DNA of 64,000 nt, taken from contig NZ_AP022620.1 of NCBI RefSeq assembly GCF_010731855.1, forward strand, positions 3,038,001-3,102,000, read 5' to 3'. Position numbers and translations under genes: made by a program. Source of the DNA: Mycolicibacterium anyangense (GTDB lineage Bacteria; Actinomycetota; Actinomycetes; Mycobacteriales; Mycobacteriaceae). The notes under the pieces are model-generated. The model was given only the letters and a program-made list of their open reading frames with translations. It was not told where the DNA came from and searched no databases. Below, in pieces: positions 9,278 to 31,229 of this stretch; position 1 is the stretch's first letter, and every line of letters begins with the position of its first letter.

Positions 9278-10099
9278 CTAGGCGCGGCTGAACGCCGACG
9301 CCGCCGCCACCTGCTCGGCGGTCGGGCGCACCCCGGTGTAGCGCTCGAACTGTTCGGCGGCCTGCAGCGCGATCACCTCGGCACCGGTGATCACCTGCTT
9401 ACCCGCAGCCCGCGCCGCCATGATGAGCGGGGTCTCCGACGGCAACGCGACGACGTCGAAAATCGTTCGCGCCGAAGCGATCACGTCGTCATCAAAAGCC
9501 GGCTCGCGCATCTCCGGCCCGCCCGCCATCCCGATCGGCGTGACGTTGACCACCACCGGTGCCCGCAGATCACCCACCTCGGCCTGCCAGCCGTAGCCGA
9601 GCCGGTCGGCGAGTTGCCTGCCCGTCTCGGCATTACGGGCCACGATCGTGCCGGCACCGAATCCGTGGTCACGGAATGCGGTTGCCACCGCACTGGCCAT
9701 CCCGCCGCTACCGCGGATCACCACATGCTGCGCGGCATCAAGCCCATAGGACGCGATCAGCCGCTGCACCGCGATGTAATCGGTGTTGGATGCAGTCAGC
9801 ACCCCGCCGTCGTTGACGATCGTGTTGACCGCGGTGATGGCGCGCGCCGACTCCTCGACGTGGTCGACAAGAGCCAGGACATCCTGCTTGAACGGCATCG
9901 ACACCGAGCATCCCCGGATCCCCAGCGCCCGAACGCCACCGATCGCGGCCGCGATATCCGTTGTGGTGAAGGCCTTGTAGAGGAAATCCAGACCGAGTTC
10001 GTCGTACAGGTAGTTGTGGAACCGGGTGCCGATATTGCTGGGCCGGGCGGCCAGCGAGATGCACAGCGTGGTGTCCTTGGTGAGCGGCGGTCTGGCCAT
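9278..10099 (-). CDS. shikimate 5-dehydrogenase-like (AroE family) protein
   Basis: 273-residue NAD(P)-binding protein of the shikimate/quinate dehydrogenase fold. The N-terminal substrate domain has GCSVSMPFKQDV, in which the family lysine (catalytic K) is kept. AVNTIVN is the substrate-binding Asn segment, and the nucleotide domain has IRGSGGMASAV in place of the usual GxGGxxxA. The end motif ITGAEVIALQAAEQFERYTG matches AroE. Canonical AroE makes shikimate from 3-dehydroshikimate, but mycobacteria carry a separate chromosomal aroE near the pentafunctional pathway genes, so this may be a paralogue acting on a related substrate. It is one base from pat on the same strand, and they are probably co-transcribed. 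Confidence 0.82.
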   Translation of the reverse strand: MARPPLTKDTTLCISLAARPSNIGTRFHNYLYDELGLDFLYKAFTTTDIAAAIGGVRALGIRGCSVSMPFKQDVLALVDHVEESARAITAVNTIVNDGGVLTASNTDYIAVQRLIASYGLDAAQHVVIRGSGGMASAVATAFRDHGFGAGTIVARNAETGRQLADRLGYGWQAEVGDLRAPVVVNVTPIGMAGGPEMREPAFDDDVIASARTIFDVVALPSETPLIMAARAAGKQVITGAEVIALQAAEQFERYTGVRPTAEQVAAASAFSRA

Positions 10100-10100
10100 G

Positions 10101-12796
<2,696 letters not shown>

Positions 12797-12797
12797 G

Positions 12798-13631
12798 TTA
12801 CAGGTGGGTGGAACGGTTCACGAAGCGCCCGGCGCGCGGCGAAAAGAACCATCCGCCACCGGCTTTCGTCCCACCGTCGACGGGGATGTTGTGGCCGGTG
12901 ACGAACGCCGACTGGTCGGCGGCCAGGAACAGCGCCACCCGGGCCTGATCCTGCGGCCGGCCCACCCGTCCCGCCGGCGCCCAGGACTGCCACAGATGCT
13001 CGACATCCTCGTACCCGGTCAGGTAATCCACCTGGGGCGTCTGGGTCAGATCGGTGCCGATGCCGTTGACCCGCACACCGTAGCGGCCGACGTCGACGGC
13101 CAGACAGGTCGTGAAATGTGCGACAGCGGCTTTCATCGCTCCGTAGACCGGATCGCGGGGGAATCCGCGCATGCCCTCCACCGAGTGGATGTTGACGATG
13201 CTGCCGGCGTGCGCGTCGATCATCGCCGGCAGGAAGGCTCGGGTCACCGCGAAGACGTGGCGCAGGTTGATGTCGTACATCCGCTGCCAGCTGTCCGGCG
13301 TGGATTCCTCGAAGGCCACCAGCGGCCGGTAGTCCCCGACGTTGTTGACCAGCACGTCGATCCGGCCGTGCTCACCGAGCACGGCACCGGCCAGGCGGGC
13401 GACGGCATGGTCGTCGGTGACGTCGACGACGTGGCTGCGGATCCCGTCCGCCGCGATCCCGGCGGCCCGCTGCGGGTCGATCTCGGCGACCTCCACCACC
13501 GCACCGTGCTCGGCGAACAAGGTGGCAACCGCGGCGCCGATCCCGGCCCCGCCGCCGGTGACCACCGCAACGCGGCCGTCCAGCAAGCGATTCCAGTCCG
13601 TGATGGGTGGAACACCGGGCATCTGGCTCAT
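12798..13631 (-). CDS. SDR family NAD(P)-dependent oxidoreductase
   Basis: 277-residue short-chain dehydrogenase. It has the cofactor motif TGGGAGIG, NNVG in beta-4 (usually NNAG), the active-site serine in NIHSVEGM and Y-x3-K in YGAMK, and ends in the PVDGGTKAGGG segment typical of the family. Substrates could be a ketone or alcohol. The ATG at 13631 lies 20 bases downstream of the FAD oxidoreductase stop in the type III PKS cluster, so it may be the last gene of that operon and act on its product. That link is inferred from position only. The longer reading frame upstream overlaps the FAD gene and has no family sequence. Confidence 0.85.
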   Translation of the reverse strand: MSQMPGVPPITDWNRLLDGRVAVVTGGGAGIGAAVATLFAEHGAVVEVAEIDPQRAAGIAADGIRSHVVDVTDDHAVARLAGAVLGEHGRIDVLVNNVGDYRPLVAFEESTPDSWQRMYDINLRHVFAVTRAFLPAMIDAHAGSIVNIHSVEGMRGFPRDPVYGAMKAAVAHFTTCLAVDVGRYGVRVNGIGTDLTQTPQVDYLTGYEDVEHLWQSWAPAGRVGRPQDQARVALFLAADQSAFVTGHNIPVDGGTKAGGGWFFSPRAGRFVNRSTHL

Positions 13632-13651
13632 AGCGGCGCAGCCTACGCCGG

Positions 13652-14668
13652 TCAGTACGCCAGTTGGTTCACAATCCCGCTGAACACCGACGGCAGCGCG
13701 ACCGCGGCGGGCACGATCGCCGAACGTACCGGCTTCAACTGGCTGGCATGCAGCAGGCCGGCGGTCAGCATCCGGTAGCGGCGCGACATGTGCCGCCACT
13801 GGCGGTCATAGTCGCCGGGCCGGCCGGCCACCACAGCGTCGACCAGCAACTCGGCGCCGCCGAACGCAATGCCCAGGCCTTCACCGGTCAACGCGTCGAC
13901 ATAGCCGGCCGCATCGCCGACCAGCATGACCCGGCCGCGGCTGCGGGACGAAACCCGTTGCTGCAGTGGGCCTGCTGCGCGGTCTCGACCGTGACCGAGG
14001 CTACCCACCCGGTCCTTCAAGGCCGGGAACTCCGCCAGGTGGTGATCGAAGGAGCCCTGCTGCGAGGTCAGGATCGCCACCCCCACACAGTCGTCGGCCA
14101 CCGGCGTGACATAGGCCTCCGCACTCTGGCCCCAGTACACCTCGACGGTGTCGCTCCAGGGCGCGGTGTGGAAATGCCGCCGCACCCCCCACCGCCGCGG
14201 ACCGCGGCTGGGCCGGGACAACCCCAGCGAGCGTCGGATCGGTGAGTGCAGGCCGTCGGCCGCTGCCAGGTAGCGGGCCCGGAATTCGCCGCAGTACACC
14301 GCATCGTGGTCCTGGCTGACCGCGCCGATGTCGGCGGTGACCACGTGCACCCCTGCCGCGGCGACCGCCTCGCGCAGCGCGGTGTGCAGTGCGGTGCGCC
14401 GCACCCCCAGTCCTGCTCCGGAGCGGAACGGCGCCTCGATCCGGCGGCGCGAATCCAGGTAGGCGATACCCCGAAATGGCTTGCCGCGCAATGTCACACC
14501 GAGCTTGTCCAGTTGGCCGACGGTGTGCGGCATCAGACCCTCACCGCAGGCTTTGTCGATGGCGCCGGGACGGCGTTCCACGACGGTGACCTGCAGGCCG
14601 GCCCGCGCCGCATACAGGGCGGTGGCCAGTCCGGCCGGACCGCCCCCGGCGACCAGCAGATCGATCAT
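13652..14668 (-). CDS. FAD-dependent oxidoreductase (SrsC/geranylgeranyl-reductase-like) of type III PKS cluster
   Basis: 338-residue flavoprotein. The N-terminus has the Rossmann motif GGGPAGLATA, a mid-protein ADGLHS and the second FAD motif VMLVGDAAGY-DALTGEGLG. These mark the p-hydroxybenzoate hydroxylase/geranylgeranyl reductase class. The start codon ATG overlaps the TGA of the upstream ICMT gene (ATGA), so the two are translationally coupled. In Streptomyces the srsA-srsB-srsC operon has the same order (type III PKS, methyltransferase, flavin hydroxylase) and the flavoprotein hydroxylates an alkylresorcinol to a quinol. I infer the same kind of reaction here: ring oxidation of a long-chain phenolic lipid to a quinone. 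Confidence 0.85.
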   Translation of the reverse strand: MIDLLVAGGGPAGLATALYAARAGLQVTVVERRPGAIDKACGEGLMPHTVGQLDKLGVTLRGKPFRGIAYLDSRRRIEAPFRSGAGLGVRRTALHTALREAVAAAGVHVVTADIGAVSQDHDAVYCGEFRARYLAAADGLHSPIRRSLGLSRPSRGPRRWGVRRHFHTAPWSDTVEVYWGQSAEAYVTPVADDCVGVAILTSQQGSFDHHLAEFPALKDRVGSLGHGRDRAAGPLQQRVSSRSRGRVMLVGDAAGYVDALTGEGLGIAFGGAELLVDAVVAGRPGDYDRQWRHMSRRYRMLTAGLLHASQLKPVRSAIVPAAVALPSVFSGIVNQLAY

Positions 14669-15174
14669 GTCAGGCTCGCCAGCGCCGCGTTCTCGGTGTG
14701 GATGCGGGTGCGCAGCAGCGCGGCGTTGAGAACGGTGAACACCAGCGCGGTGATCCAGGCGCTGTGCACCAGCGGCAGGGCGATCCCCTCGGCGATCACC
14801 GCCACGTAGTTCGGGTGCGAGAAGTACCGGTACGGGCCGCCGGTGATCCGGGGCGCCCCGGGAACCACCACCACCCGGGTGTTCCACTGCCGCCCCAGGG
14901 TGCTGATGCACCACCACCGAAGCCCTTGGGCGGCAAGCACAACAGCCAGCATCGGCCAGCCCAGCGCGGGCACGAACGGGCGGTGCAGGGCGAGTACCTC
15001 GACCAGACAGCCGATGAGCAGGCCGGTGTGCAGCACCACCATCACCGGATAGTGGCCGGCCCCGAACTCCACCCCGCCGCGCTCCCTGCTCCACGCCAGG
15101 TTGCGGCGCGCGACCACCAGTTCGGCGAGCCGCTCGAGGGCGACCGCGACGAGCAGGACCACGTAGAAAAGCAT
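14665..15174 (-). CDS. isoprenylcysteine carboxyl methyltransferase (ICMT)-family membrane methyltransferase
   Basis: 169-residue integral membrane protein with four or five hydrophobic helices. Its C-terminal half has the SAM-binding signature GPYRYFSHPNYVAVIAEGIALPL of the ICMT/PEMT superfamily. These enzymes methylate lipidic substrates at the membrane surface. In type III PKS operons of actinobacteria the gene in this position (SrsB-type) methylates the phenolic lipid. It starts 10 bases after the PKS stop (15185) and overlaps the FAD oxidoreductase by ATGA. The N-terminal MLFYVVLLVAVALERLAELV is the first helix. Confidence 0.87.
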   Translation of the reverse strand: MLFYVVLLVAVALERLAELVVARRNLAWSRERGGVEFGAGHYPVMVVLHTGLLIGCLVEVLALHRPFVPALGWPMLAVVLAAQGLRWWCISTLGRQWNTRVVVVPGAPRITGGPYRYFSHPNYVAVIAEGIALPLVHSAWITALVFTVLNAALLRTRIHTENAALASLT

Positions 15175-15184
15175 CAGTGCCAGT

Positions 15185-16294
15185 TCAGTGCCAGTTCAGC
15201 AACAACAGCTCGGAGCAGAACCCCGGGCCCATCGCCATCATCACGCCGGGGCTGCCACTCGGCGGGCGTTTGGCGATGGTGTCACGCAGCACGTGCAGCA
15301 CCGACGACGACGAGATGTTGCCGATCTCGGCCAGCGAGCGCCACGTCAGCTCCAGCGCATCGTCGGGCAGGTCCAGGCTGGCCACGATGGCTTCGATGAT
15401 CTTCGGGCCACCGGGGTGGCTGACCCAGGCACCGATATCGTCCATCGTGAGACCATGGGCGCCAAGGAATTCGGTGACGTCGTCGCGCAGGTAGCGTTCG
15501 ATCGTGGCGGGCAGGTCCGCCGAGAGCACCAGCTCCAGGCCCGACCCGCCGACGTCCCAGCCCATCGTCCGCAGCGAGTCCGGGTAGAGGTGGCTGCGGG
15601 AGTCCAGCACGTCGGGACCCGAGGCACCGATCTTCTCGGCCCGGCGCTCGCCGACGGCGACCACCGCGGCCGCACCGTCGGCGAACAGTGCGCTGCCCAC
15701 CAGGCTGGCGATCGCCGGCTTGGCGCCCGGGAAGGTCAGTGAGCACAGCTCCACCGATACCAGCACCGCTACCCCGTCCGGGGCACCGCGCAGGTAGTCG
15801 TGCAGCCGGGCCACTCCGGCGGCACCGGCCACACACCCGAGGCCGAAGATCGGCACCCGGCGAACGTCGGGCCGCATGCCGAGCCGCCCGGCGATCCTGG
15901 CGTCCAGCGAAGGCACGGCGATGCCGGTGACCGTGGTCGACACGATCAGGTCGACATCCTCGGGACGCAGACCGGCTTCCTCGAGCGCGCCGGATACTGC
16001 CGCGCAGCCGAGTTCGACGGCGTGCTCGATGAACAGGGTGTTGGCTTCACCGAAGTCGGTGAGCGACGAGTAGCGCTCGAGCGGCAACACGAAGTGCCGA
16101 TTGTTGACCTTGGCGCTGCGGTGCAGGCTTCGGACGATCTCGTCGAACTCGCCGTAGCCGGGAAGCGCGAGGAAGGCCTCGGTGATCTCGGCCTGGCTGT
16201 AGCGGAGCGGCGGGAGTTCACCGCGCACTCCGGCGATCACGGATTTGGGGGACATATCCGGATCACGATCCCGGGAGTCGGGTGGTTCAGTCAT
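15185..16294 (-). CDS. type III polyketide synthase (chalcone synthase-like)
   Basis: 369-residue type III PKS. The catalytic triad is visible: Cys in [11 protein letters not shown], His in VSHPGGPK and Asn in EIGNISSSS. It ends with the GPGF-type loop [16 protein letters not shown]. Such enzymes extend fatty acyl-CoA starters with malonyl units to alkylpyrones or alkylresorcinols. ATG 16294 lies inside the end of the MMPL gene (8-base overlap ATGACTGA), so translation is probably coupled. ATG 16255 is a second choice that would drop 13 residues. With the ICMT and FAD genes behind it, it matches the srsABC layout and the mycobacterial locus that makes polyketide quinones. Confidence 0.93.
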
Positions 16295-18581
16295 CGGGTG
16301 TGGGGACCGGTTGTTCGACACTCTGCCCAGTATCCTGCGCCGCTGGAGTCTTTGCTGCGCGCGGGACGGCCCCGTCATGTATCTGTAAGCGCTGATGCAC
16401 CGTGACCAGTGGTCTCGGCGCCCACCAGTTCCATCTACCCATCACGTGCATGAAGGCGGGCACCAGGATCAGCCGCACCAGGGTGGCATCGGCGAGCACC
16501 GCCAGGGTCAGACCCAAGCCGAACATCCGCATGAACGACACTTGCGCGGCGATCAGCGCGGCGAACGAGATGGCCATGATCAGTGCGGCCGCGGTGATCA
16601 CCCGGCCGGTGTGCGCGACGCCGAGTGCGACGCTCTCGTCGTTGTCGGCAGCGGTCTTGGGTGACTGCAACCAGAACTCGCGGATCCGGGAGACCAGGAA
16701 CACCTCGTAGTCCATGGACAACCCGAAGGCGATACAGAACAGCAGCACCGGCATGTTGGCCACCAGGGTCCCGGTGGACGTGGTGCCGAACGCCCCGAGG
16801 TTGCCGTCCTGGAAGATCCAGACCATCGCGCCGAACGCGGCCGACAGCGACAGGACGTTGAGCAGCAGCGCCTTCACCGGCAGCACCACGCTGCCTGTCA
16901 GCAGGAACAACAGCAGCAGCATGATCAGCGCGATCAGGCCGAGGACCAGCGGTAGCCGGGAGGTGATGGCGTCCACACTGTCGCGGTTGGTCTGTGCGAC
17001 ACCGGTGAACTCCACGGCGCGCCCGCCCGGGGTGGCCACCGCGTGCAACGCGTCGAGCTGGCGCTCGGAGCGATCGGAGAACAACGGGGCGCTGCTGTCC
17101 ACGGTCAGCAGCGTGCTGCCCTTGGCCTGAGCGGTCGCCGAGGTCGGCGGGCCCACCACCCTGCCGCCGACGAAGGCCCCGGCCGGAGACGACACCGACA
17201 CCACGTCGGGCACCGTGGACAGCTCGGCCGCGTAGCGGGCGACCTCGCCGTCGGGCAGGCCGCCGGAATCCAGGATCACCACGGGCACGGCGGTTTCGAA
17301 GTTGGTGGCGAAATCACGCCGCAGCTGATCGCCGACCTGATGGGCCGACGCCGACTGTGGCAGCACGCGGTCGTCCGGGAAACCCGGCCGCACCCCCAGG
17401 AACGGGGTGCCGAGCAGCACCAGCACCGCCACCCCGGCCACGCCGATCGGCAAAGCTCGCTTCATCACGAATGTCGTTGAGCGGTACCAGAACTGCTCCT
17501 GTACCGGGGTGGCCACCGGCTCGGGGCGCCGCACGATCCGGCGCAGGCCCCGGCGCACGTCGAGGGCGTCGATCCGGTCACCGAGCACCATGATGGCCGC
17601 GGGGGTGACGACGATCGCCGCCAGCGCCGCGAACGCCACGGTGGCCACCCCGGCGTAGGCGAACGAGCGTAGGAAGTTCATCGGGAACAGCACCATGACG
17701 GCCATCGACAGCGCCACCGTGGTCGCCGAGAACAGCACCGTGCGGCCCGCCGACTGCATGGTCCGGGTGAGCGCCAGCTCTCGGGCCGCCCCGTCGGCCA
17801 GTTCGTCGCGGTAGCGGCTGATCATCAGCAGCGTGTAGTCGATGGCCAGCGCGAGCCCCATCGCGGTGGTGAGGTTGAGCGCGAAGATCGAGACGTCGGT
17901 GAAGAACGTCGTCACCCGCAGCACGCCCAGCGCACCGAGGATGGCCATCAACCCCACGCCGACGGGCAGTGCCGCGGCGAACAGCCCGCCGAACACCCAC
18001 ACCAGCACCAGGAAGCTCAGCGGAACGACGATCGACTCCATGAGCAGCAGATCGTGCTGGGATTGTTCGGTGATCTGCAGGTTGACCATCGCGGTGCCGC
18101 CGGAATGCACGACGATGCCGTCGGAGTCCCTGGCGATATCGGCGGCCAGCGTCTTGGTGTAGCTCTGCAGCTTGTCCTCGGGGCCGACCACGCCGGTGAC
18201 GATCAGGCCGGATTTCTTGTCGGTACTGATCAGCCCGGCGGCCACCGGAGGTGGCGAGGTCCACGGCGAGCTGATGGTGGCCACCCGACCCGAGCGTTGC
18301 AGGCGGTCGATGACGTCGGTGGCCGCGGCGCGGGCCTGCGGGCTGTCGAAGCGGTCAGGCGCCGTCAGTACGACGAGCAGCTGGACGTCGCCCTGGCCGA
18401 ACTTCTCGGTGAGCAGTGTGGCCGCCCGGGCCGACTCGGCATGGGGATCGGAGAAACCGCCCGGGGACAGGTGGGTGGCCACCGGGACCCCGAAGATACC
18501 GATGACCACCATGGCCAGGACGGCGCCGACGATCACCCGCCGCGGCGCCGCGATGGCCAGCCGGGCGATTGCTGACAGCAA
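16287..18581 (-). CDS. MMPL/RND-family lipid transporter
   Basis: 764-residue MMPL transporter with twelve predicted membrane helices in two halves and two periplasmic porter loops (residues 40-175 and 385-540). Each half carries the Asp-Tyr proton-relay pair ([10 protein letters not shown] and [10 protein letters not shown]) that MMPL proteins need for proton-driven export of lipids. The start appears to be a TTG at 18581 with AAGGATGAG upstream. Its last codons overlap the PKS III start by 8 bases. I infer that it exports or positions the cluster's lipid product in the envelope. It lacks the long soluble C-terminal domain of MmpL3, ending after about 50 hydrophilic residues. Confidence 0.92.
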
Positions 18582-18662
18582 TATCTCATCCTTCGGTGAT
18601 CGGCGACCTCTGATGCGGATACGTACATCATGGCGCTGCGGTTCATCAGGGCTAGCGGTTCA

Positions 18663-19406
18663 TCACGGCTTGCGGGGCCACGGCAGCCAATACGGCACGG
18701 TGCGGGCGTAGTCGTCGAACGCCGGACCGTGCAGCTGGCGCAACCGCGCCTCTTTGAACCGCGGCGCTATCAGACAGTAGGCGGTGAGGGTCAGTGCAAC
18801 GGCCAGCTGGTCGGGAGTCCAGGTCGGGACGGTCCATAGCGTCAGGGTGAAGGCCAGGTAGATCGGCTGGCGGGTGAGCCGGAACAACCCGGTGGTCGGC
18901 ATCGGCGGGTAGGCCGGCGGGCGTCCGCGCAGCAGTGCGGTCCAGCCGAGGCTGCCGGTCTGCAGCGCCAGGCCGGCGTCGGCCATCGACTTGCCCAACA
19001 GCAGCCAGGCGGCGACGTACAGTCCGGTCATCGCCACCAGCGCCGCGCCGCGGGCCTGCCACCACACCGTGGCACTGGGCGACCAGAACGCGAAGAGCGC
19101 GAACACCTGCATCGCCGAGATCGCGGCGAAGGTGGTGGTGGCCAATGTGGTGCCGGTGCCGCGCGGGGCGAGGCGGGCCAGCAGCTTTCGGCCCGAACCG
19201 GTGAGCAGCAGCGAGTGCGAGACCGGGAACTGCAGCAGCAGTGCGGCGTTGGCGATCGGGCTCCACGGCGCGGCCAGCGTGCCCAGCGACCGGCTCATGC
19301 CGAAGAACATCGCCACCATCATGGTGCCCACACCGATGGCGAAGAACGTGTGGCAGCTGATGCCGTAACTCAGCGCCACGGCTGTCCGGCCGCCGCTTAC
19401 CTGCAC
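18663..19406 (-). CDS. NnrU/ICMT-like integral membrane methyltransferase
   Basis: 247-residue multi-helix membrane protein. It has six or more hydrophobic segments, and near the C-terminus a TGLFRLTRQPIYLAF segment analogous to the SAM-methyltransferase GPY-R-xHP-Y motif of the ICMT/NnrU group, then RFKEARLRQLHGPAFDDYARTVPYWLP, a typical end. GTG 19406 has GGAGG four bases upstream. TTG 19436 and GTG 19379 are alternatives. It would be the first gene of the type III PKS operon, 81 bases before MMPL, and is divergent from the O-methyltransferase at 19451. The substrate is unknown. Methylation of a phenolic lipid or a thiol (methanethiol S-methyltransferase class) is possible. Confidence 0.72.
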   Translation of the reverse strand: MQVSGGRTAVALSYGISCHTFFAIGVGTMMVAMFFGMSRSLGTLAAPWSPIANAALLLQFPVSHSLLLTGSGRKLLARLAPRGTGTTLATTTFAAISAMQVFALFAFWSPSATVWWQARGAALVAMTGLYVAAWLLLGKSMADAGLALQTGSLGWTALLRGRPPAYPPMPTTGLFRLTRQPIYLAFTLTLWTVPTWTPDQLAVALTLTAYCLIAPRFKEARLRQLHGPAFDDYARTVPYWLPWPRKP

Positions 19407-19438
19407 AAAACCTCCGCGTGACCCCCGTGGGCACAACG

Positions 19439-19444
19439 TAGCGT
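19439..19444 (+). promoter_or_regulatory. candidate -10 box TAGCGT for a leaderless O-methyltransferase transcript
   Basis: TAGCGT fits the mycobacterial SigA -10 pattern TANNNT and ends 6 bases before ATG 19451, so the transcript would begin at or next to the start codon. No clear ribosome site lies in the gap. Leaderless mRNAs are common in mycobacteria. Confidence 0.4.
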
Positions 19445-19450
19445 GAGGGC

Positions 19451-20203
19451 ATGAATCTTCGCAGGCGTCTGCCGTTGTTGCGGTGGTCGGTGGTGCGGAC
19501 CGGGATCGGGCTGCGCAATTTCACCAGGACCGGGCAGATCGGCGACGGCCGGGAGGCGGCGGCCGCCGACTACGTCGAGTCCAACGCCCGGCGCGGCGAC
19601 GTCGACCACGTGCTGGCCACCCTCGACGAGTACGCCTACGCCAAGTCGTTCCTGGTGAACGTCGGCGACGAGAAGGGCGAGCTGCTCGACGCGGCGGTAC
19701 GGCGGGTGGCGCCCCGGCGGGTGCTGGAACTGGGCACCTACTGCGGGTACAGCGCGCTGCGGATCGCCCGCGCCGCCCCGCAGGCGCAGGTGTTCTCGGT
19801 GGAGCTCGCCCACGCCAATGCCGATGTGGCCCGGCGTATTTGGGAACACGCCGGGGTCGCCGACCGGATCACGTGCGTCGTCGGGACGATCGGCGACAAC
19901 GGCAACACCCTCGACCGGCTGCGCGACGAGTACGGGTTCGGCCCGGGCAGCGTCGACTTCCTGTTCATCGACCACGACAAGAACGCCTACCTGGCCGATC
20001 TGCTCGCCGTCGCCGGGCGGGGCTGGCTGCATCCCGGCACAGTGGCCGTCGCTGACAACGTCGGTTTCCCAGGCTCGCCGAAGTACCGCGCCTACATGAC
20101 CGAACAGCAGGGCCGGTCGTGGACGACGGTGGAGCACCGTGCGCACATGGAGTACCAGAAGCTGGTACCCGACCTGGTGCTGGAATCGGAGTACCTCGGC
20201 TGA
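19451..20203 (+). CDS. catechol-type O-methyltransferase (class I SAM)
   Basis: 250-residue SAM-dependent methyltransferase. The SAM motif VLELGTYCGYSAL is followed by FLFIDHDKNAYL and AVADNVGFPGSP. The Asp-Asp-Asn set in these last two is the Mg2+ and catechol-binding set of COMT-type enzymes. No signal peptide, so it is cytosolic. It is divergent from the type III PKS operon with only 44 bases between starts, so a shared control region is likely. I infer a role in methylating a hydroxylated ring intermediate (an o-diphenol would be the preferred substrate). A strong terminator follows at 20207. Confidence 0.85.
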   Translation: MNLRRRLPLLRWSVVRTGIGLRNFTRTGQIGDGREAAAADYVESNARRGDVDHVLATLDEYAYAKSFLVNVGDEKGELLDAAVRRVAPRRVLELGTYCGYSALRIARAAPQAQVFSVELAHANADVARRIWEHAGVADRITCVVGTIGDNGNTLDRLRDEYGFGPGSVDFLFIDHDKNAYLADLLAVAGRGWLHPGTVAVADNVGFPGSPKYRAYMTEQQGRSWTTVEHRAHMEYQKLVPDLVLESEYLG

Positions 20204-22818: not shown

Positions 22819-24315
22819 TCAGTTGCCGTAATCCAGCATCGTCATCATCCCGGCGTCCATGTGATAGCCGTTGTGGCAGTGCATCATCCACACCCCTGGG
22901 TTGTCGGCGAGCAGCCGGACCGCCACGGTCTGCATGGGCTTGACGATGACGGTGTCCTTGCGCGGCCCGAGGCTGCCATCGGGCCTGATCACCTCGAAGG
23001 TGTGGCCATGCAGGTGCATCGGGTGCCACATCATGGTGTCGTTGACGAACTCGAGGGTGGCGCGTTGACCCTGCCGGATGGTCAGCGGAACAGTCTGGTC
23101 GAACGGTCGGCCGTTGATCATCCAGTCGTAGCGCATCATCCCGCCGGACAACCGGGCCTGGAGTCGGACATCGCCGCCCGGGGGTAGTTCGACATCCGGT
23201 GTGGCGCGCAGGAGTTCGGCCACGGCGACCCGGCCGGCGAGCTCGGGCGGCCGAAAGGATGCTTCGGGCGCCGACCCCGAGCCGGTGGACAGCAGCGCGC
23301 GGGCGACGCCCTTCTTGCCCTCGGCCGCGGCCACCAAGGGGAACACGCCATCGCCGGCGGTCACCACCATGTCGTAGCGCTCCCCCATGCCGAGCAGAAC
23401 CGCATCCACCTCGACCGGCTGGACGGGGAACCCGTCGGTGTGGGTGACCGTCATCCGGTGACCGGCCAGAGCGACGCGGAAGGCGGTGTCCGCACCCGCA
23501 TTGATGATGCGCAGCCTGATCCGCTGCCCCGGCTTGGCGCTGAATGTGGTTGCTGCAGAAGGTATTCGACCATTGACGAGGTAGTACGGATAGCTGACGT
23601 CGCCGCCGTCCCCGCCGAGCAGGCCGCCGCCGGGCCCCATGCTCCCCATGCCCGGCATGTTGCCCATTGCACCCATGCCGCCCATTCCCGACGAGCGCAG
23701 GCCGTCGAAGATCTCCTTCGGGCTGCGCCCGACGCCGGAGGTCCAGTCGTCGAGGACGACGATCCATTCCGCGTCGTAACGCCCCGGTTCAGCCGGGTCA
23801 TCGATGATCACCGGCACGTACAGGCCGTAATCAGTGTCCAGCCCGGTGTGCGGGTGGGCCCAGTAGGTGCCGGGGTAGGGCGAGGTGAATCGGTAGGTGA
23901 AGCTCGCGCCGACGGCAATGGGAGAGGTGGCCGGCGACGCGCCGTCCATGTCGTTGCGCAGGGCGATGCCATGCCAGTGCACCGAAGTCGGGTGATCGAG
24001 CCCGTTGTCGACGGTGATCGCCAGTTCGTCACCGACCCCAGCCCTGATCACCGGTCCCGGCAGCCGGCTGTTGTAGGCGAAGGTGCGCACTGTGATGCCG
24101 CCCAGGTCGACCTCGGCGGGCCCGGCGGACAACCGTGCGCTGACCGTCTTGCCGGTATGCGGCCGGGCGGCCTCGGCGGCCGTGATCGCACCCGACAGAT
24201 CCGGTCCGGCAGCGGTCCAGTCGGCAAGCCGGCCGCAGCCGGCCAATACCGCCCCGCCCAGCAGCCCAGCGACGAGGAATCCCCGCCGGGTCATGCCCGG
24301 CACTGGCCTGTTCAC
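22819..24315 (-). CDS. mmcO: MmcO-like multicopper oxidase, TAT-exported lipoprotein
   Basis: 498-residue multicopper oxidase. The N-terminus has twin arginines (TRRGFL) followed by lipobox LAGC, so it is folded before Tat export and lipid-anchored. The four copper-binding motifs are HWHG, HPH, HPMHLHGH and HCHNGYHMDAGM. The axial Met lies in the last. Between cupredoxin domains 1 and 2 is a Met/Gly-rich loop (GMGGMGAMGNMPGMGSMG) typical of cuprous oxidases. M. tuberculosis MmcO (Rv0846c, 504 residues) oxidises Cu(I) and protects against copper. GTG 24315 has an AGGAGG six bases upstream and is preferred to ATG 24294. Confidence 0.92.
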   Translation of the reverse strand: MNRPVPGMTRRGFLVAGLLGGAVLAGCGRLADWTAAGPDLSGAITAAEAARPHTGKTVSARLSAGPAEVDLGGITVRTFAYNSRLPGPVIRAGVGDELAITVDNGLDHPTSVHWHGIALRNDMDGASPATSPIAVGASFTYRFTSPYPGTYWAHPHTGLDTDYGLYVPVIIDDPAEPGRYDAEWIVVLDDWTSGVGRSPKEIFDGLRSSGMGGMGAMGNMPGMGSMGPGGGLLGGDGGDVSYPYYLVNGRIPSAATTFSAKPGQRIRLRIINAGADTAFRVALAGHRMTVTHTDGFPVQPVEVDAVLLGMGERYDMVVTAGDGVFPLVAAAEGKKGVARALLSTGSGSAPEASFRPPELAGRVAVAELLRATPDVELPPGGDVRLQARLSGGMMRYDWMINGRPFDQTVPLTIRQGQRATLEFVNDTMMWHPMHLHGHTFEVIRPDGSLGPRKDTVIVKPMQTVAVRLLADNPGVWMMHCHNGYHMDAGMMTMLDYGN

Positions 24316-28086: not shown

Positions 28087-28105
28087 CTGAGGATTACATC
28101 GTGTG

Positions 28106-28119
28106 TGACGATTTCGTCA
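28106..28119. promoter_or_regulatory. 14-bp perfect palindrome upstream of P450
   Basis: TGACGA-TT-TCGTCA lies in the 63-base gap before GTG 28150. A TTGACT at 28083-28088 could be the -35 of a promoter whose -10 region (TGACGAT) is this palindrome, so a bound regulator would block it. The regulator is unidentified. Confidence 0.45.
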
Positions 28120-28149
28120 TTAGAGGTCCGGCGTCGAGGAGGTCACACG

Positions 28150-29355
28150 GTGAGAACGCGTCTGTCGCCGGCGAGCCGCGCTCCCGGTACCCCCACCTAT
28201 GGTGCGGACCTCTACCGCACCGAGGCCATCCTCGATCCCTATCCGCACTACGCCAGGCTCCGGCAGCTGGGCCCCGTCGTGTGGCTTGCACGGCACAAGG
28301 TCCATGCACTCCCGCGCTTCACCGAATGCAAAGCCGTCCTTCGTGACGACGCCACCTTCGCCTCGGCCAACGGCGTCGCGCTCAATGCCGTCAGCAACCG
28401 GTTGTCCACCGGAACCACGATCGCCAGTGACGGGGAGGAGCACTCCCGCCGCCGTAAGCTGGTGGCACATCGGATGTTTCCCCGCGCGCTCAATGCGCTG
28501 AACGACCAGGTGCAGACGTTGGCCACCGAGGTGATCGACACCGCCGTGCGACGAGGGCGAGTCGACGGCGCTGCGCTCGCCGAGGCGTTGCCCTTCGCCC
28601 TGGTCCCGGACTTGGTGGGCTGGCCGGTCGAGCACCGCGGCCACCTGATGGACTGGGCCGCAGCGACATTCGATTGTCTGGGCCCGCTCAATGGGCGGTC
28701 GGTTCGAGCCGCGCCCCGCACTGTGCAGATGCTGTTGTTCGCCCGGCGGATCGTCCGTGAGGGCAACGTACTGCCCGGCAGCATGGCGGCCGAACTGCTC
28801 GACGCGGCGGAGAAGGGCGAGATCGACCGAAGTGACTGCCCGGCGCTGCTGGTCGACTACCTCGGCCCTGCGCTGGACACCACCATCAGTGCCATCTCCA
28901 ACGCGCTCAGCCTGTTCGCGGCGCACCCGGACCAATGGCAGCTGCTACGTGAGGAACCCGACCGGCTGCCCAACGCCGTCAACGAGATCGTGCGCTTCGA
29001 GTCACCGATCCGCGCGTTCGCCCGCCGCGTCGCGGTCGATACCGACATCGCGGGCACACCCCTACGGGCCGGTTCCCAGGTCCTGGTCATGTACGCCTCG
29101 GCGAACCGGGACGAACGGGAGTGGGAAGCCCCGGACACCTTCGACATCACCCGCGACGCCGGGCGTCATCTCGGCTTCGGGCAGGGCGCGCACGCGTGTG
29201 CCGGCCAGGCGCTGGCCCGGCTGGAGGCCACGGCGTTCCTCCGCGCCCTGATGGCACGGGTGAAGCGCCTGGAGCCGGCGGGCGCCCCGACGTGGATCCA
29301 CAACAACATCATTCGACGCCACGAGCACCTGCCGATTCGGCTCGTCGCGGCCTAG
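28150..29355 (+). CDS. cytochrome P450
   Basis: 401-residue soluble P450. The haem-binding loop is FGQGAHACAGQ with the thiolate Cys, and the ExxR of the K-helix is in NEIVRFESP. The I-helix reads GPALDTT, keeping the acid-threonine pair but with Pro-Ala where Ala-Gly is usual. Such enzymes insert oxygen into small hydrophobic substrates. GTG 28150 has a GAGGAGG ribosome site eight bases upstream, so I choose it over GTG 28105. The 3' end overlaps the convergent TetR gene by 47 bases. The substrate is not known. Confidence 0.9.
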   Translation: MRTRLSPASRAPGTPTYGADLYRTEAILDPYPHYARLRQLGPVVWLARHKVHALPRFTECKAVLRDDATFASANGVALNAVSNRLSTGTTIASDGEEHSRRRKLVAHRMFPRALNALNDQVQTLATEVIDTAVRRGRVDGAALAEALPFALVPDLVGWPVEHRGHLMDWAAATFDCLGPLNGRSVRAAPRTVQMLLFARRIVREGNVLPGSMAAELLDAAEKGEIDRSDCPALLVDYLGPALDTTISAISNALSLFAAHPDQWQLLREEPDRLPNAVNEIVRFESPIRAFARRVAVDTDIAGTPLRAGSQVLVMYASANRDEREWEAPDTFDITRDAGRHLGFGQGAHACAGQALARLEATAFLRALMARVKRLEPAGAPTWIHNNIIRRHEHLPIRLVAA

Positions 29356-29983
29356 TCTTCGCCGCAATGCCAGACAGCGTCGCCCAGCGCGGGTAGACGA
29401 TGGCCGGACCGAGCCAGCGCGCGACGAAGCCGCGCAGCGCAGTTCCGGTGCGCGGCGCCGGTCCCGGATCGGTCAACATGGATTGCACTGTGCGCGTGGT
29501 GATCTCGGCGAGATCACGAAGGCCGTCCTCGTCGAAACCGTGCAGGCCCCAATCGACGTCGAGGCGGCGGAACACCGACAAGCAGAACGTCATGGCGGTG
29601 TCGGAGGTCAGCGATGCGACGGCGTCGCCGTCGTCCCGGCGGGTCAGCAACTTCTCCAGCTGCGGATCACCGGACAGATTCTCGATGCCGAACGACACGA
29701 TCTCGACGACCGCGACGGCGGGGTCCTTGACGCCGGCGACATGGTCGAGGAGTTGGTCGATGAATCCGTTGACCGCTCGCATCGCGCTGGCGATGAGCAG
29801 AGCGTCGGCGTTGGGAAAGTAGCGGTACACGGTCTGGCGGGTGACGCCCAGCCTGCGCGCGACATCGGCGAGGCGGATGGCCGCGCCGTGCTCGGCAACC
29901 TCCTCGTCCACCGCGGTCAGGATCCGCGCGATGGCGTCCTCGTCCGACGACGGCGTCGAACCCGCCCAGCCACGGCTACGCAT
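29309..29983 (-). CDS. TetR/AcrR-family transcription regulator
   Basis: 224-residue TetR repressor. The N-terminal helix-turn-helix (AIRLADVARRLGVTRQTVYRYFPNADAL) is followed by a ligand-binding domain of about 150 residues. Its ATG overlaps the stop of the P450 at 29976 by 8 bases (ATGCGTAG), so both are translated from one message. The likely operator is the inverted repeat at 31292-31311 in the P450 promoter. The 3' end overlaps the other P450 tail to tail by 47 bases, so antisense interference is possible. The inducer is presumably the substrate of the P450. Confidence 0.9.
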   Translation of the reverse strand: MRSRGWAGSTPSSDEDAIARILTAVDEEVAEHGAAIRLADVARRLGVTRQTVYRYFPNADALLIASAMRAVNGFIDQLLDHVAGVKDPAVAVVEIVSFGIENLSGDPQLEKLLTRRDDGDAVASLTSDTAMTFCLSVFRRLDVDWGLHGFDEDGLRDLAEITTRTVQSMLTDPGPAPRTGTALRGFVARWLGPAIVYPRWATLSGIAAKTRPRRAESAGARGVE

Positions 29984-31229
29984 CCGTCGTCACCAGGCTC
30001 TCACTGGTGAACTCGATCGGAAGCGTTGTGGGACCGGTCATTCCGAGTAGGGACTTCCAGGGGGCCGGCCCGGCGCGGTGCGGGGCGGCAAGGCGGCGGG
30101 TGAGGACCACGAGCGCCTCGGCGAGTTCGCGCCGCGCCAGGTTGGCCCCGAGGCAGTAGTGCGCCCCACCGCCGAAGGTCAGAATGGGTGGAACGTCCTT
30201 GCGTGAGATGTCGAACCGGTCGGCATCGTCGTAGATGGCCGGATCCCGGTTCGCGGCAAAGGTGTTGACCAGGACGAAGGTTCCGGCCGGGAAGAGATAG
30301 CCGCCGAACTCGGCGTCCTCGATCGCGGCCCTCGGCACGATGCAGGCCGCGGGTGAGTGACGCATGGTTTCCTCGACCGCCTGCATCGCCATGTCCGGAT
30401 GGTCGCGCAGGGCCGCCCACTGGTCGGGATGCTCGCAGAGCACCTGGACCGACGCTGCCAGCTGATTGCGCGTGGTATCGGTGCCGGCCATCAGGAAGCC
30501 GGCGGCCAGGCTGCGCAGTTCGTCGAGATCGAGCCGGTCTCCGTCGCTTTCGGCGCGGATCAGCTCGGAGAGCAGGTCATCGGTGAGGGTGGCGCGGCGG
30601 GCTGCCACCATGTCGTCGACGTAGTCGTCGAGTTCACCCCATGCCCGCAGGATCTCCGACTCGTCGAAGGTGGCGTCGGGCTGGAAGTTGAAGGCCTTGA
30701 AGACCTGTTCGGTCCAGTCGGAGAACAGCTGCCAGTCTTCGCTCGGGGCGCCCAGCAGCGCGCAGATGATCGGGGTGGGATACGGGCGCGCGATATCGGT
30801 GACGACGTCACACCGGCCGGCGTCGGGCAGCCGGTCGATGAGGCCGTTGACCACCTCGTGGATGGTGTCGTGCAGACGTGCGGTGGCGCGGGGGGTGAAC
30901 GCCTTGGAGACCAGCTTGCGCAGCCGTATGTGCGGTGCGCCGTCGAGCCCCAGCAGGCTGCTCATCAGCTTGTCGTAGAGCGGACCGGAGGTGATGCCTT
31001 GAGCCGCCAGCGTGATTCCCGGCGGCATGCGGAACCTGTTGTCCCGCAGCATCTCCCGCGCCAGTTCGTAGGACAGGATTTCCGGGCCCAGTGGCCCGAT
31101 GGCGATCGGCGCCTGCGACTGGGCCAGCCGGAGATCGTCGATCACGTCGTGCGGGGTGGCGTCGAGGCCGTAGCTGAACGTGGGCAGCCCGGCGTCAAAA
31201 ATATTCCGGGCGGCGCTGGTGATCGTCAT
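29976..31229 (-). CDS. cytochrome P450
   Basis: 417-residue soluble P450. The I-helix has the canonical FLMAGTDTTRNQL, the ExxR is in VEETMRHSP, and the haem ligand is in FGGGAHYCLGANLAR. It has the features of a class I bacterial enzyme that needs a ferredoxin and reductase, none of which is in this window. It is followed by and overlaps a TetR regulator, and its promoter carries an inverted repeat. ATG 31229 starts at the conserved MTITSAARNI. The substrate is not known. Confidence 0.93.
   Translation of the reverse strand: MTITSAARNIFDAGLPTFSYGLDATPHDVIDDLRLAQSQAPIAIGPLGPEILSYELAREMLRDNRFRMPPGITLAAQGITSGPLYDKLMSSLLGLDGAPHIRLRKLVSKAFTPRATARLHDTIHEVVNGLIDRLPDAGRCDVVTDIARPYPTPIICALLGAPSEDWQLFSDWTEQVFKAFNFQPDATFDESEILRAWGELDDYVDDMVAARRATLTDDLLSELIRAESDGDRLDLDELRSLAAGFLMAGTDTTRNQLAASVQVLCEHPDQWAALRDHPDMAMQAVEETMRHSPAACIVPRAAIEDAEFGGYLFPAGTFVLVNTFAANRDPAIYDDADRFDISRKDVPPILTFGGGAHYCLGANLARRELAEALVVLTRRLAAPHRAGPAPWKSLLGMTGPTTLPIEFTSESLVTTDA

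Follow-up and report, generated by a model that had tools for sequence, protein, structure and literature searches.

An extended pkq-type gene cluster in Mycolicibacterium anyangense that probably joins a PkQ core to genes for transport and extra methylation

The DNA examined is a 64,000-nt stretch of Mycolicibacterium anyangense (NZ_AP022620.1, assembly GCF_010731855.1; 3,038,001-3,102,000, forward strand), referred to as the window, and all positions below are those of this window. The locus holds the following genes:

19451-20203, plus strand: COMT-type enzyme, cluster-specific paralogue; 250 aa; Methyltransf_3
18663-19406, minus strand: MddA/NnrU-like membrane protein, probable methyltransferase; 247 aa from a GTG start, other starts possible
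16287-18581, minus strand: MMPL (RND) transporter; 764 aa; TTG start
15185-16294, minus strand: type III PKS, probably of the pkqA lineage; 369 aa; Cys154-His293-Asn326 and Trp246
14665-15174, minus strand: ICMT-type membrane methyltransferase in the pkqB position; 169 aa; PF04140, 99.9 bits
13652-14668, minus strand: FAD monooxygenase in the pkqC position; 338 aa; GGGPAG, ADG and GD motifs
12798-13631, minus strand: SDR oxidoreductase (adh_short), a doubtful member; neighbor in one arrangement only

The COMT-type and MddA-like genes diverge across 44 bp, and the latter is followed after 81 bp, a gap missing from the original prediction, by the MMPL gene, whose reading frame shares 8 bp (ATGACTGA) with that of the PKS. 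The ICMT-type gene begins 10 bp beyond the PKS and shares 4 bp (ATGA) with the FAD gene; the SDR gene lies 20 bp further on. The gene order, both overlaps and the gaps given in that prediction were reproduced. Pfam cut-offs are passed for the PKS, ICMT, FAD_binding_3, adh_short, MMPL and Methyltransf_3.

The PkQ operon pkqA-C is known from M. smegmatis, and its founding study is said to be that of Anand et al. (2015, Mol Cell). Judged by the PKS, ICMT and FAD families, their residues and the PKS tree, the core of the cluster is of this pkqA-C or srs kind, as originally predicted. M. smegmatis has one type III PKS, located in a three-gene operon (available text of PMC5916927) and given as MSMEG_0808 (available text of PMC8730385). 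As in pkqA-C, the PKS, methyltransferase and FAD oxidoreductase genes form one operon, with the ICMT and FAD genes directly 3' of the PKS. The window PKS falls in a clade, class A, together with PKS11 of M. tuberculosis and the sole PKS match of an M. smegmatis-group genome (G077), whose MmpL3 shares 98% identity over 280 residues with its M. smegmatis counterpart and whose locus reads PKS-ICMT-FAD. The core is complete in 85 of the 86 class A loci with sufficient upstream sequence, and a start codon yielding the ATGA-type ICMT/FAD junction is present in 90 of 95 clusters. By gene order the core also resembles srsA-B-C of Streptomyces griseus and the PkQ operon of Streptomyces sp. MNU77, where methyltransferase and hydroxylase or oxidoreductase genes follow the PKS (PMC9927152, in its available part). 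PKS10/PKS11 of M. tuberculosis and MMAR_2470/2474 are alike in that PKS11 lies within the class A tree; however, nine loci assigned to this type by tree position show no ICMT or FAD partner, one of them (L099) offering only 0.75 kb downstream.

Loss of the PKS active site had been named beforehand as evidence against a quinone pathway, and Cys154, His293 and Asn326 are all in place. In an alignment of 351 residues, Trp246 falls opposite position 230 in the PKS11 chain, the site named in connection with Trp281 of ArsB and resorcinol cyclization (PMC5916927, available text). This Trp is found in all 113 core-linked PKS rows and is not confined to resorcinol makers; as PKS11, a named pyrone synthase, carries it as well, it cannot decide between resorcinol and pyrone. 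A second argument named against the pathway, that the closest relatives make alkylpyrones, stands insofar as PKS11, named an alpha-pyrone synthase, is the nearest solved structure, but is weakened by the available text of PMC5916927, which lists PKS11 and M. smegmatis PKS10 as resorcinol formers. DpgA was rejected as an identity for the PKS (NCBIfam equivalog cut-off missed, 170.9 vs 425 bits), as was the geranylgeranyl reductase family for the FAD enzyme (TIGR02032, 111.3 vs 158.8 bits). Among the first 50 structure matches of the FAD enzyme, most are flavin monooxygenases and halogenases and one is geranylgeranyl reductase-like (3oz2).

The MMPL protein has its MMPL domains and an Asp-Tyr pair in both halves (AIDYTLL at 246, SMDYEVF at 622). 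Across the genus, 58 of the 85 comparable class A clusters carry a full-length MMPL of one family 5' of the core and on its strand; three carry fragments only and 24 none. Like the ATGA-type ICMT/FAD junction, this recurrence goes beyond chance. At the 61 loci with a full-length MMPL (58) or fragments (3), the MMPL stop and PKS start are overlapping or at most 10 bp apart in 47, the spacing being exactly -4 in 21. The same family is found near diverged class B clusters (13/19), on the opposite strand. No MMPL is present at the G077 locus or in 17 of 25 rows of its PKS clade, and none was found within about 4.4 kb 5' of the PKS at ten of ten loci from other genera. Since these ten loci, and the class A clusters with fragments or none, lack an intact gene, the core route needs no adjoining MMPL. 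Unlinked relatives of the window MMPL are mostly 64-68% identical to it. Neighbor families of unlinked copies were assigned for the one in this genome (L233) and for a single gene of another locus (L240); the former adjoins SAM methyltransferase, Sir2 and GntR genes, an order that presumably resembles that around mmpL13 in M. tuberculosis. MmpL13-type proteins are relatives located away from pkq; the window has, in addition, a copy of its own beside the pkq operon.

The divergent COMT and MddA-like pair occurs at a minority of clusters and in two orders of the same genes, COMT-/MddA+/MMPL+ at 10 and MMPL+/COMT-/MddA+ at 5 of 94 class A PKS genes. M. rhodesiae is one relative that shares the gene order of the window. 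Paired COMTs group together in the tree (35/36 in one clade), and pairs away from any pkq PKS are seen in three genomes (L253, L255, L256). The Asp, Lys, Asp, Asn and Glu residues of COMT are present (FIDHDK at 172, ADN at 201, MEY at 233) and kept in at least 97% of 51 rows; their metal-binding and catalytic roles are presumed from animal COMT, which is also the closest solved structure. The MddA-like gene occurs in 24 of 198 genomes and adjoins a PKS in 21 of its 25 matches. Its protein matches no Pfam family at E 0.001, and its sole NCBIfam match at that threshold is the MddA model; a true MddA methanethiol S-methyltransferase was rejected, as the equivalog cut-off is missed (70 vs 270 bits). 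At E up to 1, PEMT is matched by 22 of 22 relatives (best 0.0014) and NnrU is not among the families.

Linkage of the MMPL, COMT and MddA-like genes to the core is real across species, which supports their proposal as possible extensions of the cluster. The SDR, also counted as a member at first, is doubtful, its linkage being limited to one arrangement. The M. smegmatis-group locus differs in lacking MMPL, COMT and MddA-like genes, and the available part of PMC9927152 mentions no exporter or extra methyltransferase for the srs and MNU77 operons, with "MMPL" occurring 0 times. No account describing the core, the MMPL and both extra methyltransferases together was found in the open-licence literature.

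The families, catalytic residues, core lineage and kept linkage of MMPL, COMT and MddA-like are read from the DNA itself, and from these we infer substrates, product, transport and physiological role. The window probably holds an extended pkq cluster, with a PkQ core joined by transport and extra methylation. Its product is very probably a quinone lipid, formed along the known three-enzyme route, the intermediates of which are given in PMC9927152 (available part). The PkqA-type PKS would condense fatty acyl-CoA, malonyl-CoA and methylmalonyl-CoA into a 4-methyl-5-alkylresorcinol; the ICMT-type enzyme would O-methylate one resorcinol hydroxyl, and the FAD monooxygenase would hydroxylate para to the other, giving a 5-methoxy-2-methyl-3-alkyl-hydroquinone whose oxidation would yield PkQ. 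The MMPL may then take the quinone, or one of its precursors, from the inner leaflet in the direction of the outer membrane, and COMT and the MddA-like enzyme may carry out further methylations where their genes occur. The extra genes suggest that transport and modification of the product go beyond those in the species used to study the route. A profile search places MenD above cut-off in this genome. A search of the 64-kb window for a DosR-like box gave none, a result with no bearing on a low-oxygen role.

That the core makes PkQ while MMPL, COMT and MddA-like are neighbors with another job, such as MMPL transport of a different lipid, and are kept in place by common regulation or by the stability of the chromosomal site, would fit the core without these genes in the M. 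smegmatis group and at the ten other-genus loci. It would also fit the wide spread of the MMPL family (191/198 genomes) and of COMT orthologues (164/198, mostly away from pkq). We consider it unlikely in view of MMPL frames that overlap or nearly touch the PKS (47/61), the same family near class B clusters on the other strand (13/19), and a COMT and MddA-like pair that accompanies the core in either of two gene orders.

Methylated alkylpyrones or phenolic envelope lipids, with no respiratory quinone, appear improbable as the product. An exporter would suit an envelope lipid, the nearest solved relative carries the pyrone synthase name, and M. marinum MMAR_2474 forms pyrones, resorcinols and phloroglucinols (PMC5916927, available text); however, an FAD monooxygenase with its motifs and an ICMT partner accompany the PKS at 85 of 86 class A loci, in the gene order of the operon with PkQ chemistry (PMC9927152, available part). 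A special case of the extended pkq reading is that COMT and MddA-like produce a ubiquinone-like 2,3-dimethoxy-5-methyl head, exported by the MMPL. The PkQ hydroquinone is one methoxy short of the ubiquinone head and otherwise alike. COMT carries residues for catechol O-methylation, with animal COMT the nearest structure, and the reported hydroquinone is 5-methoxy-2-methyl-3-alkyl (PMC9927152, available part). The cluster has no second hydroxylase, however, so a second ring hydroxylation must come from the FAD enzyme or elsewhere, and this case is very unlikely. Equally speculative is its wider form, in which some environmental mycobacteria would have extended pkq to an exported, more methylated, ubiquinone-like quinone, its ring completed by COMT and MddA-like and a dedicated MMPL taking it to the outer membrane. 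The lipid would then be redox-active beyond the inner membrane, in bacteria whose quinone is otherwise menaquinone.

The species in which PkQ biology was established belongs to a clade where the transporter gene is mostly missing; this gene adjoins pkqA in about two thirds of the class A clusters sampled across the genus. If the MMPL moves PkQ, the quinone would be more than an inner-membrane carrier, and the MMPL family would gain a testable substrate. Quinones predicted from the clade-specific COMT and MddA-like genes may be searched for by mass.

All seven genes of the cluster on which the original prediction was based are present in the window, with the order, overlaps and gaps that it described:

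12798-13631, minus strand, SDR
13652-14668, minus strand, FAD protein (core gene 3)
14665-15174, minus strand, ICMT-type methyltransferase (core gene 2)
15185-16294, minus strand, type III PKS (core gene 1)
16287-18581, minus strand, MMPL transporter
18663-19406, minus strand, MddA-like protein
19451-20203, plus strand, COMT

The type III PKS family has a single match in the host genome, one contig of 5.70 Mb, and MenD is also found with a score above the cut-off. The nearest named locus is that of Mycobacterium sp. M26, with a PKS 96% identical. No description of the extended unit (core, MMPL, COMT and MddA-like) was found in the open-licence papers searched; the three-gene core is already known and is not new.

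The window PKS retains Cys154, His293 and Asn326, and its closest solved structure is PKS11 of M. tuberculosis, in which chain residue 230, a position linked to resorcinol formation in PMC5916927, aligns with Trp246. The second core product is a membrane methyltransferase of the ICMT family, and the third carries FAD monooxygenase motifs whose key residues do not vary across 34 aligned sequences. The predicted model of the FAD protein (pLDDT 89.2) matches flavin monooxygenases and halogenases in a structure search, including UbiH and hydroxybenzoate hydroxylases, with a geranylgeranyl reductase-like protein also among the matches. As judged from sequence, the three central genes are best read as a route to polyketide quinones (PkQs). 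PMC5916927 describes a single type III PKS in M. smegmatis, in a three-gene operon whose products lead to PkQs, and PMC9927152 gives the intermediates as 4-methyl-5-alkylresorcinol, 5-methoxy-2-methyl-3-alkylphenol and then the 1,4-diol. In two sampled genomes, G077 and G344, MmpL3 matches that of M. smegmatis at 98% identity across 280 residues, and each has one match to the window-type PKS; they are close relatives of M. smegmatis. The G077 locus reads PKS-ICMT-FAD like the window core, with no MMPL match for some 9 kb upstream of FAD.

With the FAD protein as query, a search of the genus (198 genomes, E 1e-40) returned a match in 164. From these, 120 regions were fetched: 98 of class A (FAD protein at least 60% identical; all those listed except the window's own) and 22 of class B (50–53% identical; only part of the class B matches). 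PKS, ICMT and FAD occur in order in 85 of the 86 class A loci with at least 6.5 kb upstream; at least one of these 85 (L119) has decayed and its PKS is broken. A start codon permits an ATGA-type ICMT/FAD junction in 90/95. Classes A and B separate cleanly in a PKS tree of 130 rows, made by a quick method with SH-aLRT only and carrying a long-branch warning; PKS11 and solo PKS10/11-type loci fall within class A. Slow-grower PKS10/11-type genes placed inside the pkqA lineage but lacking ICMT and FAD partners are seen at L073, L075, L083, L087, L090-L093 and L099.

The window MMPL has an Asp-Tyr pair in each half. A full-length member of its family lies upstream on the same strand in 58/85 class A cores, in three of them on the far side of COMT and MddA-like; three further cores (L119, L134 and L143, all decaying copies) hold fragments only, and 24 have no MMPL upstream. 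Where no gene intervenes (61 loci, counting those with fragments), the MMPL stop overlaps the likeliest PKS start or lies no more than 10 bp before it in 47 cases; the spacing is exactly -4 in 21 and falls between -118 and +65 in 60. MMPL is absent in 17/25 rows of the PKS clade containing G077. Ten loci from other genera in the order all have a complete core, and none shows an MMPL in the 4.4 kb or so upstream of PKS. The family itself is present in 191/198 genomes (E 1e-150), and in 13/19 class B cores a member lies on the other strand, up to 9.5 kb upstream. A 91-row tree of MMPL places 16/18 unlinked and 7/8 class B rows in a single clade (support 94, not starred) and all 65 pkq-linked rows outside it; the remaining two unlinked rows (L246 and L248) are at contig ends, L248 adjoining a COMT. 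Twenty regions were taken for unlinked MMPL, one of which (L252) has a COMT without MMPL, and three were examined in full: SAM methyltransferase, Sir2 and GntR genes adjoin the host genome's second copy (L233), a SAM methyltransferase lies beside that of L240, and a class B-like PKS and ICMT beside that of L245. Such a second PKS with its own ICMT is also directly upstream of MMPL in L174, L176 and L191, where a full class A core follows as a tandem cluster; only PKS-ICMT-MMPL is seen in L245. As the MMPL gene looks like part of the core operon in most class A clusters sampled, transport of the core product or a precursor is the simplest inference.

The closest solved structure to the window COMT is mammalian catechol O-methyltransferase (E 7e-40); the 26 best solved matches of this bacterial enzyme are all titled catechol O-methyltransferase and are presumably animal proteins. 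Catalytic residues are conserved in 51 aligned rows. The MddA-like protein scores below every cut-off and is perhaps, on weak grounds, of the ICMT/5-alpha-reductase fold. Within the fetched regions, gene orders (strand relative to PKS) were scored for 94 class A PKS: COMT-/MddA+/MMPL+ in 10, MMPL+/COMT-/MddA+ in 5, MddA+/MMPL+ in 2, MMPL+ only in 42 and none detected in 35, short contigs and fragments included. Among 80 named loci, a set overlapping with the 94, the first two orders occur 13 and 10 times. The MddA-like gene is found in 24/198 genomes (25 matches, E 1e-40), beside a class A PKS in 21, beside COMT only in three and alone in one (L257); in the three with COMT only (L253, L255 and L256) the divergent COMT/MddA-like pair stands away from any pkq PKS. 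COMT orthologues occur in 164/198 genomes, and 35/36 MddA-like-paired COMTs fall into a single clade (100/99) that excludes 15 unlinked COMTs, the exception being L255; in genome G000 the cluster COMT is the sole COMT at E 1e-40. As both genes stay with the core despite the change in gene order, they probably act on its product.

Beyond the cluster, genes for a cNMP-binding and GNAT protein (10101-11342, minus strand) and a shikimate-dehydrogenase-like protein (9278-10099, minus strand) come after it, an order kept in relatives sharing the window's arrangement, and two cytochrome P450 genes flank a TetR regulator at 28105-31229. A multicopper oxidase (22819-24315, minus strand), 2.6 kb beyond COMT, could oxidize hydroquinones. 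The reported PkQ hydroquinone corresponds to the ubiquinone head minus one methoxy group. No second hydroxylase is seen in the cluster; provided that the ring receives one more hydroxylation, COMT could add the missing methoxy group.
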